Assembly: GCA_948144175.1 (NCBI GenBank)
Contig: CANXME010002068.1
Location: forward strand, 6,621,501 to 6,685,500
Length of the DNA stretch: 64,000 bases
Source of the DNA: Closterium sp. NIES-65
Lineage: Eukaryota; Streptophyta; Zygnematophyceae; Desmidiales; Closteriaceae
Direction of reading: 5' to 3'
Below the pieces are notes generated by a model that was not told where the DNA came from, searched no databases, and worked only from the letters and a program-made list of their open reading frames with translations. A program made the translations under genes and the position numbers. Below, piece by piece: positions 16,819 through 48,563 of the stretch (positions are counted from its first letter, which is position 1; every line of letters starts with the position of its first letter).

Positions 16819-19598
16819 TTACTCAACTGTGCCACCATCTCCAGAACCACCACCAGCAGCAGCACCCCCCCCAGCAGTAACAGCAGGTGGAACCCGGGCA
16901 GAGAGTATGGGTGGGAGAACGAGGGGGGCGCTCCAGTGGGGGAAGGGGGAGATGCGGGGCGCTTCCAGATGCACATGCCACACAAGCACCCGAGAGCAGT
17001 CGTCTGCTAGCGCCTCCATCTGTGATTCGTCTGCCACTAGTTGCTCTATGAACGTGGTCTCCTGCACGGTTGCAACGTGTGCACAGACAGTGGGGGTGAG
17101 AGACAGATCGGAGAGGAAACACAGCGGGTTGAGTCAACTCCTATTTCCCACATCCAGCCCAGACACAGGGCCATATGCAAACAGCAGATCACAGCAATCC
17201 TGACGCTCCCACAATCTCCCAAGTAATTCTCACCCATCACCCCTCCTCCCCCCCCCCCCCCCCCCCCCATGCATCCTCCCTACACACAGCTCTCTTTTTG
17301 TTTTGCTCCCCCCTTTCACCCATGCCACACCATCCCAAACACCACCTTCCACCTCCCTCCCTCACACCAAACCTCATCTCACCTGAAACCCCTCCTTCAC
17401 AGAATCCAGCTGTCTGATTGGCTGGTCCGTCGGGCGGCGCCACAGCGACGGGTTCCAGAGAATGGTGGAGTTGAACGCGAATCCGCACATGTCCACGTGG
17501 AAGCGCCTCACTCGCCGGCTCTTCTCGTTGGTGTGCCACCCAATCACCCTGCCGGCCTCGCACACTGGCCCCTCCAGAGTTGCCCGAGACTTGCCCTGCT
17601 GCAGCATTGCCACTGGCCATGTGCCAAAGCGTCTGGGGCATCAAGGTGAGGGGGGAGGAGAGGGGTGAGGTGGGAAAGATGAGGTCAGGGATGGTGCAGA
17701 GCGGCGTGGAGTGGGAGTGGGAAACGTATGGCGGGAGTGCATGCAACAAAGGTGAGGAGCCGTGGGACGTGGTGGAAGACGGGGGAAAAACAGGCAGACA
17801 AACAAGCATTGCAGCATTGCTGTTGGTGCCCAGGGGAGGCTGTTGCAGGACTCGGTGCGTGGCTAAAGGCGTGGGTCAAGATGGTAATGCAGGAGAAGAG
17901 AGGGGAGGGGAGGGGAGGGGAGGGGAGGGGAGGGGAGGGGAGGGGAGGGGAGGGGAGGGGAGGGGAGGGGAGGGGAAGGGAGCGTGGGGATGTGAGGAAA
18001 CGCAGGAGAAGAGAGAGAACGGAACCGAGACAGAGACATAGCACCAACAAACGCCTCCACCTACCCCACCCATCCTCCCCCACAACCCGAACTTCCTCCA
18101 ACCCCCCTTTACATTCACTCGATGGCGCGCATCTCCTCGAACAGCTCAAGCGAGTAGATACCATCATCATCCGCATAAATAATTCCGTTCAGGCAATGCT
18201 TTTGAAGCGCCTCAAAAGCCTTCGTACTCACTTGATGGCGCGCATCTCCTCAAAGAGCTCGAGCGAGTAGATGTTATCGTCATCCGCGAAGTACATGATG
18301 CCGTCCAGGCGGTGCTTCTCCACGTGCTCCATGGCGGCGTTGCGCTGGTGCACGCCGCGGTCCTTGATGTCCGTCATGTTCTTGTGCGCCACCAGGTGCC
18401 GGTACACCAGCCCCGTCCCGCGCAGCAGCGCCGCCGTCTCCGCGGATTGCGGGAAGATCTCCACCACGAGCCAGAGCACCGGCGGCGGGACTTGCGCGAG
18501 GAGGTTCGCGAGGCGGTGCAGGTACATGGCTTGGAATGGGCGGACGTACGTGGGGGTGACGATGATGAGCAGCGGGCGCACGCCGCCGCCTGTTTCTTTC
18601 CCCGTGCGCGCGTCCACGCGGTGGTACGCGGAGCACTGCGCGCTGTCGGGGGCCGGCGGAACGCGGAGGGTGGTGAGGGAGGAGGCGGATTCGGAGGGGA
18701 AGGAGGACGAAGACGAGAGCGGAGAGGAGGGCAGTCGACCCAAAGTGCTGCTGCTACCACTGTCCTTGTGAGTGCCTAGAATAGTATCGCTGCTGCTGCT
18801 GCTGCTGCTGCTGCTGCTGCTGCTGCTGCTGCTGCTGCTGCTGTCGCCACTCCCACCAGCCAACAGCATTGTCCCTCGCACGCGATCCCCGGCCGCTTCC
18901 ACCTCCGCCTCCCTCCGCGCAACCGCCTCCGCCAGCCGCTCTTGGCGGAAGCCCGCGGGGGAAAGCGCGGGGCGCACGACCTTCTCCTGGCGGAATGGGT
19001 GCAGGTCGGAAAGCAGAGGCCACACGCCCTTATGCGCGCCGTCTAGCCACAGCAACCCCGCAGTCAGCCCCGCGATAAAGCACAGCAGAAGGGTCCCCGG
19101 CCGAATACCCATCGCAGCAACCGATAGCGCGGGGTTGCGCTTCTGCCCGCTGACCGCTCCGCCGACTCCGCTTCCGCTTCCCCCCGAGGACATCCGCGCG
19201 AACCAGCCCTGCGCTGCGCCCGCGGATCCGGGGAGTCGGGACTCTCCTCCGCCTTCCCCATCGGACTCCCCCTTCCCCCAATCTCTCCCCTTCTCCGCGT
19301 CGTCCCTCTCGTCCCCCGCCCGCGCGGTGCTTCGCCGGGGGAGGGGAGTGACGCCCGGGTTTCCGCCCATGGGCGAGAGCGCGGAAGCGAGAGGCGCTGC
19401 GCCAAACGACGACACAGAATCCGCGGAACCTGCTACTCCCCCTCCCCCTCCCCCTCCTGCTGCATCTGTCGCAACTGCTTCTGCAAAAGTGGCTCCGTAA
19501 ACGGAGGAGGCTTCAACTTCAGCTGGTCTGTCCCCGTGCCTGTCTCCGCCGTATCCCGTCCCCGGTGTGCTGCCGAATGACGCATCCACCCTACCCAT
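16819..19598 (-). CDS. GT43 family glycosyltransferase (IRX9/IRX14-like), three exons
   Basis: Probable Golgi type II membrane enzyme of xylan backbone synthesis; plant GT43 members work with GT47 proteins. Exons 19,598-18,232, 17,632-17,383 and 17,061-16,819 join in phase to 619 residues. A long Gly/Ser-rich N-terminus precedes a membrane span at about 165-186 ([18 protein letters not shown]). A poly-Ser run (CTG repeat) leads to the catalytic domain, with [26 protein letters not shown] and the metal-site motif [16 protein letters not shown] (DDD near 439-441). Exon 2 gives [33 protein letters not shown] and [11 protein letters not shown]; exon 3 gives [18 protein letters not shown] and VWHVHLEAP, all GT43 hallmarks. 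Intron 1 holds a degenerate copy of the exon 1 tail. Substrate and exact orthology are not settled by sequence. Confidence 0.9.
17250..17268. repeat. Poly-C tract in GT43 intron 2
   Basis: About 19 consecutive C residues within the intron between exons 2 and 3. Confidence 0.85.
17899..17976. repeat. (GAGGG)n microsatellite in GT43 intron 1
   Basis: About 15 copies of a 5-bp purine unit on the + strand. Confidence 0.95.
18117..18219 (-). repeat. Degenerate copy of GT43 exon 1 end plus palindrome
   Basis: 18,117-18,197 repeats about 80 bp of the true exon end at 18,229-18,316 with many substitutions. In frame it reads [25 protein letters not shown] followed by GTGAAT, so the metal motif DDDN has become DDDG. 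A near-perfect 22-bp palindrome (18,198-18,219, core TTTTGAAGCGCCTCAAAA) separates the two copies. There is no matching upstream acceptor, so use as an alternative exon looks unlikely. Confidence 0.75.
18787..18844. repeat. (CTG)n coding microsatellite
   Basis: Trinucleotide run inside GT43 exon 1, encoding a poly-Ser stretch of about 17 residues between the membrane stem and the catalytic domain. Confidence 0.95.
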
Positions 19599-47400: not shown

Positions 47401-48563
47401 TGACGACGCTCCCAAGTCAGTCCACCCAGCAGCACCGCTCTGCACACCTCTCTGCACACCTCCCACGCCTTGCATGCTCCCTTGCGCCTCGTGCTCTTTC
47501 ATCCGCGCCTGCTCCTGCGCCTCCTGCTGCTGCACAATACTGTCAACCATCTCTAACTCCTGATCCAGCAGCTGCTTTATCTCCGCCATGCGCGCTGCCT
47601 CCTTTTGGCTCGACTCAAAAGACAACCGCGCCTGCTCCTGCACAATACAGTTCACCATCTCTAACTCCTGATCCAGCAGCTGCTTTATCTCGTCCATGCG
47701 CGCTGCCTCCGCCTTATCACGCGCTTTCTTCGCAGCCTCTGCTTCCGCGTCCTCCCCAGGGGCCTTCACCCGGAACGCGTGTGGTGCGAGGGGGTAGATG
47801 GAAAGTTCCTGGCTCGTGCAGCTGCCGCGGGCGCCCTGGGCGAGAGATTTGAGGAAGGATTGAAGGCGAGAGGACATGTTGGAAGTGATTTGTGGGATGC
47901 CAGCGCGGGTGGGAGAGCTGGTGCCAGCACCTGCCGCGACAGCTTGCGACACAAAGCCCTCGTGGACGCGCGCTAGTAACGCGTACGCCTTGGGCCGCGG
48001 AAGAGACGCGGACTCGTACGCGATAAGAGCGTACGTGAGCCTTGAAACGGGGGGCATGGAGGAGGAGGAGGAGGAGGAGGAGGGAGCGGAGGCGGAGGAG
48101 GGGAATCTGGGCGGGCTGTTGAGCTCGGCGGGAGGAAAAGGGAAGGCGGAGAAGAGGGCCATAATGCCCCCCTGGCCCTGCGCGGATGAGCGATGCAGGG
48201 CGCGAGAGGAGTCGTGAGATGCACGAAAAGATAACAGGTGGAGAGTAGTGGAAGAAGGGGGGAAGGTGAGCGTGAGCGTCATGACTCATGAATCTTTCCC
48301 CCCACCCCTCCGCCTCCCCCCTCCCCCCCCCCCCCCCTTTCCCCGCTCAGCCCCCCTTTCTCCCTACTCTCCCACGCTCGGCCGGAATTTGACGCAAGAG
48401 CGAGGCTTACCACGGAAAATCTGCTGAGGTAAGGGGGGAGCTCCTGAGCGGAATCACGCACGAGTGGCTCCCAATCCTGCTGCGACGAGTATGAGACGAG
48501 AATGTTGCCATCGCAGATCACGCCGAGAAACAGCACCAACTGACGCTGCTGATCCTTACCCAT
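44366..48563 (-). CDS. Longin-like domain protein with long low-complexity tail, three exons
   Basis: Exons 48,563-48,411, 48,177-46,147 and 45,844-44,366, all phase 0, give 1,220 residues. The first about 120 residues fit a longin fold: LVLFLGVICDGNILVSYSS, then a helix DWEPLVRDSAQELPPYLSR, a gap, RLTYALIAYESASLPRPKAYALLARVHEGFVSQ. Longin domains occur in membrane-trafficking SNAREs and relatives; no SNARE motif or membrane anchor is seen here. A helical segment follows, with two copies of AARM(D/A)EIKQLLDQELEMV separated by LSFESSQKE, which is encoded by a palindrome. The rest is poly-Ala, poly-Gln and Pro/Ser-rich. The second donor is GTCAGT, weaker than the others, so the junction between exons 2 and 3 is uncertain. 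The exact family is unknown. Confidence 0.6.
45001..45075. repeat. (CTG)n coding microsatellite, poly-Gln
   Basis: About 25 trinucleotides encoding a Gln run on the minus strand in the third exon of the longin-like gene. Confidence 0.95.
46655..46772. repeat. (CTG)n/(CTC)n coding microsatellite, poly-Ala
   Basis: Long imperfect trinucleotide run encoding an Ala-rich tract in exon 2 of the longin-like gene. A second such run is at 47,203-47,253. Confidence 0.9.
47506..47710 (-). repeat. In-frame duplication of about 85 bp around a palindrome
   Basis: The two copies encode the EIKQLLDQELEMV helix twice. Between them lies CTTTTGGCTCGACTCAAAAG (47,602-47,621), which matches the 20-bp core of the perfect palindrome at 41,938-41,963 at 18 of 20 positions. 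The reading frame stays open. Confidence 0.9.

Follow-up and report, generated by a model that had tools for sequence, protein, structure and literature searches.

How did a family of short palindromes come to lie, at site after site, between two copies of the adjoining sequence in a gene island of Closterium sp. NIES-65? The window considered here is a stretch of 64,000 nucleotides (64 kb; positions 6,621,501 to 6,685,500 of contig CANXME010002068.1, here called C1770) near the end of this 6.74-Mb contig, in an assembly of 874 Mb and 2,400 contigs that we searched as a whole. A sequence-only reading of the window had named 13 positions with palindromes built from inverted TTTTGAG arms, and had proposed either a tiny mobile element whose target duplication would be unusually long or a repair process at a hairpin. 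In what follows, P denotes the palindrome, T each directly repeated copy of its flank, and T-P-T a palindrome between two T copies. At one site, T became T-P-T in a single step, and we tentatively favour the view that a single event of insertional repair, in which templated tails were joined through a 4-mer, left each such site as its scar.

The palindromes themselves are well above chance. Ten sites in the window match CTTTTGAGGCGCCTCAAAAG at 16 or more of 20 positions, against a mean of 0.05 in 20 Markov-resampled windows, all of which together gave a single match, at 17/20. Nine of the 13 positions named earlier are among these ten, the tenth site being at 41381; of the remaining four, 42394 and 23178 score 14/20, and 36775 and 37151, with 13/20, are at the level of chance. 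Across the assembly, the pattern TTTTGAG-N0-6-CTCAAAA has 30,566 matches as opposed to 31 for a reversed control, genome-wide counts being inflated by haplotype or redundant copies because some regions were assembled more than once (queries of 281-301 bases were recovered whole, at 100%, on two or three contigs). The centre is one of four self-complementary 4-mers, TCGA (13,080), GCGC (5,851), ACGT (5,047) or AATT (2,601), in 26,579 of the 30,566 exact sites, in agreement with the earlier remark that the centre varies while the arms stay constant. Among the matches listed, the centre was 4 bp long at every site, and four further centres (TTGA, TCAA, ACAT and AATC) each lie one step from a main one, as expected from decay. 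At wider spacing, TTTTGAG-N7-37-CTCAAAA gave 3,354 sites against 178 in the control; by eye, about 41 of 50 such sites among the matches listed are compound palindromes and the remainder are not, so that a small class of spaced arms possibly exists beside them. The pattern TTTTGAGNCGNCTCAAAAG was found in 43 stretches of prokaryote genomes and in two viral contigs, which by rough reckoning is about the chance level, and Rfam and tRNA scans of the window gave no match. With a threshold of at least 13/16, the window holds 11 sites and a 200-kb sample of the same contig holds one; this difference goes in the direction of the earlier claim that retroelement clusters lack the pattern, if the sample, as presumed, consists mostly of retroelements.

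Most of the sites that we sampled have the form T-P-T. The sample consists of the L-numbered stretches, the DNA around more than 100 sites, mostly the first matches listed, and it is non-random; the small palindrome-rich contig C6 belongs to the same genome, since a repeat within its stretch L004 is up to 97% identical to the 200-kb sample of C1770. Among isolated exact sites outside the window, 60 of 95 passed a strict T-P-T test, whereas 3-5% of random positions did so (59/2000 from 18-48 kb of the window, 107/3000 from the whole window and 96/2000 from the 200-kb sample), rising to 21% (248/1200) in gene-rich loci. This test supersedes two weaker flank tests, one against a null dominated by repeat arrays, above whose 95% level none of 52 sites lay (medians 36.5 versus 8.5), and one with a poorly designed complexity filter (47/82 sites versus 67/379 null positions). 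Both T copies lie within 15 bp of the palindrome edges at 43 of 99 isolated exact sites, compared with 206 of 3,300 positions away from palindromes, and at least one copy lies within 6 bp of an edge at 67/99 compared with 587/3,300. We scored 128 T alignments, of which 45 had an identity of at least 0.85 and a length of at least 18; removal of nine with a neighbouring palindrome (the largest T among them, 137 bp, being an array) left 36 clean isolated cases, in which T is 20-98 bp long with a median of 47. Outside this set, T reaches 17 bp at L025 and, with a long extra filler, about 134-149 bp at L075 and L002. The two copies are identical in eight of the 36 clean pairs, and the process must therefore be recent or ongoing.

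In the window, the earlier claim that adjacent sequence is duplicated around the palindromes proved correct in the larger part: clear direct copies occur at 9 of the 13 positions (18198, 23178, 40426, 41727, 41938, 42394, 44217, 44321 and 47602). Elsewhere it is weak, with copies 221 bp apart at 37151, matches of 17 bp at 40538 and 11 bp at 40617, and nothing convincing at 36775. Compared with 1000 random positions in 18-48 kb, the flanks were more alike at an empirical p<0.05 at nine of the 13, a set that includes 37151 and leaves out 41938 (p=0.064). Palindrome and duplication would have lost their connection had they been found apart as often as together, and here the answer is divided: T without P is common, and P without T is much rarer (about 10 exact sites by eye, e.g., L031, L053, L060, L133 and L144). 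A scan for local duplications with 0-90 bp between the copies, covering 18-48 kb of the window and seven gene-rich loci, found a P-like filler in 24 of 99 rows, which partly overlap and are not all independent, and the true share must be lower because the seven loci were chosen for having P; the window contributed 9 of 31 rows. Perfect tandem duplications without P also occur near palindrome sites, at L026:4556-4700 (145 bp), L003:2662-2780 (119 bp) and L025:670-760 (91 bp). The many duplications of this kind suggest that local duplication is general in these gene islands, and that only some of the duplications have the palindrome as a special filler, a point absent from the earlier reading.

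Might the whole pattern be an artefact of assembly or library construction? With their neighbouring bases, the centres read GTCGAC, GAATTC, GACGTC and GGCGCC, and thus look like linker sites, which is all that speaks for such an origin. The T copies have diverged to many degrees across the scored sites, the same insert recurs on two or three contigs, the arms vary, the four minor centres are each a single step away from a main one, as decay would leave them, and one insert keeps a reading frame. An artefact is thus extremely improbable, and the divergence of T, the inserts on several contigs, the variable arms and the frame-keeping insert led us to reject it.

The order of events can be read directly at one locus. 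A search with L050 returned its own place and a second contig that matched only from the right T onwards; the stretch taken from this contig is L166. Over 323 aligned bases, L166 and L050 differ by two substitutions and by one 95-bp stretch that is present in L050 and absent in L166, and it comprises a T of 55 bp together with 40 bp of filler. The change from T to T-P-T was therefore made in one step at L050, L166 being the copy with a single T and without P. Another explanation would be that the palindrome came first and that its hairpin then duplicated the neighbouring sequence in place, a form of the second alternative in the earlier reading. Some of the P+T units form tandem arrays, with periods of 37, 42, 53, 63 and 73 bp, and arrays with P in every unit show secondary amplification around P. 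However, the empty copy contains a single T and lacks P, which at this site contradicts duplication around a hairpin already in place; we consider this order of events very improbable as the general route. At three other sites with a second contig, P was present on every copy, and a search with the flanks of the window site at 42394 found no second copy.

We then considered the ends of the palindrome. P has no fixed ends: its arms break off at different points, and T follows immediately. The TCGA type has arms that extend as far as CGAGGTGAC-TTTTGAG, and the ACGT type as far as ACGTGAAAGAAGGAGTG-TTTTGAG or variants of it; at AATT sites, five or more kinds of outer arm occur, each symmetrical within its site. 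The longest perfect palindrome obtained is 52 bp (L048), with 48 bp at L167 and L168. The gap between T and the 18-bp core ranges from -4 to 32 nt, and at 36 of 43 sites the left and right arms are unequal in length. In the palindromes found, each arm points its TTTTGAG end towards the centre. Joins from centre to centre number in the thousands, and head-to-tail joins (centre to outer end), made at the same 4-mer, occur in L044, L164 and L084, whereas the TCGA unit joined outer end to outer end, GTCACCTCGAGGTGAC (GTCACC-TCGA-GGTGAC), searched for this type only, has 0 occurrences genome-wide. The absence of this last join and the presence of the others fit a one-directional tail that is able to repeat. 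Given the missing join, we rejected for the TCGA type that double-ended units with cohesive ends of 4 nt were freely ligated. As a separate observation, L084:216-441 is a head-to-tail satellite of at least nine units, each about 19-20 bp and composed of one arm plus the GCGC centre. In L161:158-240, two palindromes enclose a filler with four near-copies of GAGTTGACTTTT, a pattern that slippage of a growing tail might leave.

What kind of event could produce such a structure? The difference of one T plus P from the empty copy, the variable length of T, the unequal arms, the self-complementary centres and the polarity point to a staggered break with 3′ overhangs, templated tailing of its ends and pairing of the two tails, and it is on these features that we infer this sequence of steps. 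Nicks on opposite strands, about 20-100 bp apart, would yield a break with complementary 3′ overhangs, which correspond to T. A short tail of defined sequence, ending in TTTTGAG and a self-complementary 4-mer (TCGA, ACGT, GCGC or AATT), would be added to both 3′ ends, the two tails would pair through the 4-mer, and fill-in synthesis would leave T-palindrome-T. The source of the tail might, as a guess, be a short RNA that a reverse transcriptase or a telomerase-like enzyme copies. A self-spreading variant, which we regard as doubtful, is that palindromes within transcribed genes give rise to short RNAs that begin, at the 5′ end, with the self-complementary centre, and that a reverse transcriptase uses these to tail both 3′ ends of a staggered break, the tails then pairing into a new palindrome; the mobile unit would then be a half palindrome of 17-28 nt, and symmetry would be rebuilt at each insertion.

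Several observations weigh against joining by tails. First, the empty copy is known at one site only. Second, products with one tail are rare, the single convincing candidate being at 23175 in the window. Third, junction microhomology is weak: at least 1 nt is found at 14 of 21 abutting TCGA junctions, array sites being left out, against an expectation of 0.44 (p=0.03, uncorrected for composition), and more than three unexplained bases stand at 25 of 52 junctions. Fourth, no clear nick-site motif appeared in 90 contexts, in which T is slightly overrepresented before the boundary and C after it, perhaps through the alignment rule. Fifth, the search pattern requires the centre, and the constancy of the centre is therefore partly built in. 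Lastly, the lengths of the left and right arms are weakly correlated (Spearman 0.31, p=0.04, 43 sites; 0.01 on 10 TCGA sites), and long arms are fully concordant at 9 of 13 comparable sites, although arms differ greatly between sites. Such concordance would require the same template at both ends, and the copying of one ready-made palindrome fits equally.

The last point leads to an explanation that we regard as almost as probable as joining by tails, namely that a tiny palindromic element, as a DNA hairpin or a hairpin RNA, is inserted whole by target-primed copying or by capture at a staggered break, leaving a variable duplication and ragged ends. One-step insertion with a long and variable duplication is what such an element would give, the arm concordance and the weak length correlation agree with it, and a single query returned 117 matches (both strands counted), mostly of the ACGT-type palindrome and in dozens of places. 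However, both ends are ragged, neither the self-complementarity of all centres nor the origin of several perfectly symmetrical arm types is explained, and no autonomous element was seen, as the arms with 7-37 bp spacers were mostly compound palindromes among the matches listed. The mobile element of the earlier reading accordingly survives in its one-step insertion and long duplication, on the evidence of one empty copy, and not in fixed ends or a fixed length of T.

Alternatively, end joining might copy an existing palindrome from elsewhere, with quasipalindrome correction restoring its symmetry later, which we think unlikely. Template switching at quasipalindromes has been described (PMC7202029 and PMC8794818, in their accessible parts), and inverted copying does occur in this genome: in L026:5241-5330, an inverted copy of about 14 bp of the sequence flanking the palindrome stands on its opposite side, the trace of a fold-back or template switch at L026:5290. 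Random copying from donors should often carry along the flank of the donor, yet inspection by eye shows most fillers ending inside known arm sequence, although some fillers contain 20-55 unexplained bases, and the polarity of the TCGA type and the small number of centres find no explanation in it.

We can now describe the sites of the window. Its gene island encodes a GT43 glycosyltransferase and, near an ABC ATPase, a membrane protein of the UPF0014 family. Upstream, at 13.9-14.8 kb, lies a starch synthase gene; the closest solved structure to its product is 3vue, a granule-bound starch synthase that we take to be from rice. The starch synthase and the GT43 domain are in keeping with a host of the green lineage. 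In the minus-strand GT43 gene, P at 18199-18218 (GCGC centre, 19/20 to the consensus) stands just past an exon end. The T copy at 18219-18317 has the open exon end and the GTGAGT donor on the minus strand, and a degenerate T copy, 3′ in gene orientation, lies at 18106-18201. For this gene, the earlier statement that an exon end was duplicated with its splice site is confirmed; the 5′ copy keeps the open exon, the donor and the frame, and the GT43 intron would be longer by T plus P. The candidate one-tail product is a half-palindrome at 23175-23187, ACATTTGAGGCGC, consisting of one arm and the GCGC centre with T directly after it; its T copies are at 23082-23174 and 23188-23286.

The other sites cluster between 40 and 48 kb. 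P at 40426-40445 (17/20) is part of a repeated T+P unit, with T at 40363-40440 and a second T at 40481-40554 that extends into a second P, CTTCTGAGGCGTCTCAGAAG, at 40540-40559, which has matching changes in both arms. P at 40617-40636 (18/20) is without a clear T. A degenerate P (16/20) at 41726-41745 is flanked by T at 41610-41684 and 41744-41818. The T-P-T at 41908-41988 comprises T 41908-41935, a perfect 26-bp palindrome with a TCGA centre at 41938-41963 and T 41961-41988. At 42326-42490, T 42326-42393 (68 bp, 99% identical) and T 42422-42490 enclose an ACGT-centre filler at 42394-42421, and a long (TC)n microsatellite follows at 42635-42745, just downstream of this young T-P-T. Two more overlap, one at 44126-44318 around P 44217-44236 and one at 44269-44389, with T 44269-44318, P 44321-44340 and T 44340-44389. 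The last, at 47523-47710, is located in a minus-strand open frame (46009-48285; 758 aa with long alanine runs), in which T of 80 bp and a filler of 28 bp, 108 bp in all, keep the frame and give a second copy of a stretch of the protein; the open frame has no Pfam match and thus may not be a gene. A duplicated stretch at 40173-40231 and 40315-40373 has an 83-bp filler with a different small hairpin, GTGCGTTTCGCAC, from which other palindrome families may serve as fillers too.

If these interpretations hold, the palindromes would be a very abundant and recently active source of insertions in gene-rich DNA. Tails added as proposed would imply a sequence-specific, probably RNA-templated step of break repair, to whose template the centres and arms would be a handle; if whole palindromes move instead, they would be among the smallest mobile DNA known to us. 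Either way, the T-P-T scars would mark the place and spacing of nicks on opposite strands.

How do these sites compare with known systems? Miniature inverted-repeat transposable elements (MITEs) and transposons with terminal inverted repeats (TIR) have inverted arms and a target duplication, as do the sites here, which in contrast have no fixed ends, no fixed duplication length and essentially no interior. We rejected this class because T ranges over 20-98 bp in the clean cases and the terminal sequence is unfixed, as the core-to-T gap and the unequal arms show. Helitrons insert without target duplication and were rejected as well, T being duplicated relative to the empty copy at one site. A target duplication of variable length is shared with LINEs and SINEs; by eye no consistent tail was found in 81 sites, longer forms being sought at spacers of up to 37 bp. 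Introners and intron gain by tandem duplication, as far as the accessible parts of PMC9860276 and PMC4974935 describe them, likewise involve many small insertions in genes and duplicated gene pieces, whereas P itself does not appear to be an intron with splice sites. The short palindromic repeats of Volvox carteri, about 50 nt on average, intergenic or intronic and suspected to be selfish, are another likeness; according to the available text of PMC2670323, they are mainly organellar, with nuclear copies suggested to be inert, and have hairpin loops of the TTTA/TAAA type, from which the main centres in the assembly searched here differ, and the main text available does not contain the word "duplication".

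Closer parallels are found in the repair of breaks. Fill-in of both complementary 3′ overhangs by CST-Pol alpha-primase, followed by end joining, has been shown experimentally to yield small tandem duplications (PMC8355091, accessible part). The direct duplication of a short flank is the same, and there it is the product itself, whereas here a palindrome family stands between the copies; of the traits of such duplications, short direct copies of variable size were found here throughout the clean cases and a single event at one site. The addition of a defined sequence at breaks, associated with telomerase, was inferred from empty loci (PMC2246262), and interstitial telomeric and TERC-ITS sequences are inserted at breaks (PMC2246262 and PMC8537989, in the parts available). 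These resemble our sites in that a defined short sequence is added at a break in one step, with empty loci to compare. They differ in that the added sequence is the telomeric repeat and the target mostly undergoes deletion, addition or no change (target duplication at 6 of 130 rodent and 4 of 25 primate loci in the table of PMC2246262), whereas here a palindrome is added and a long duplication is usual. For the duplication half of the tail mechanism, PMC8355091 offers a precedent by experiment, and for its sequence-specific half PMC2246262 and PMC8537989 offer one, as far as their accessible parts go. No element or repair scar of this form was found described in the literature searched, which largely excluded subscription papers, and because no known family shares all of its own defining traits with these sites, they would seem, from their sequence, to form a new category. 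Under the tail mechanism, this category would be a relative of the telomerase-type insertions at breaks.

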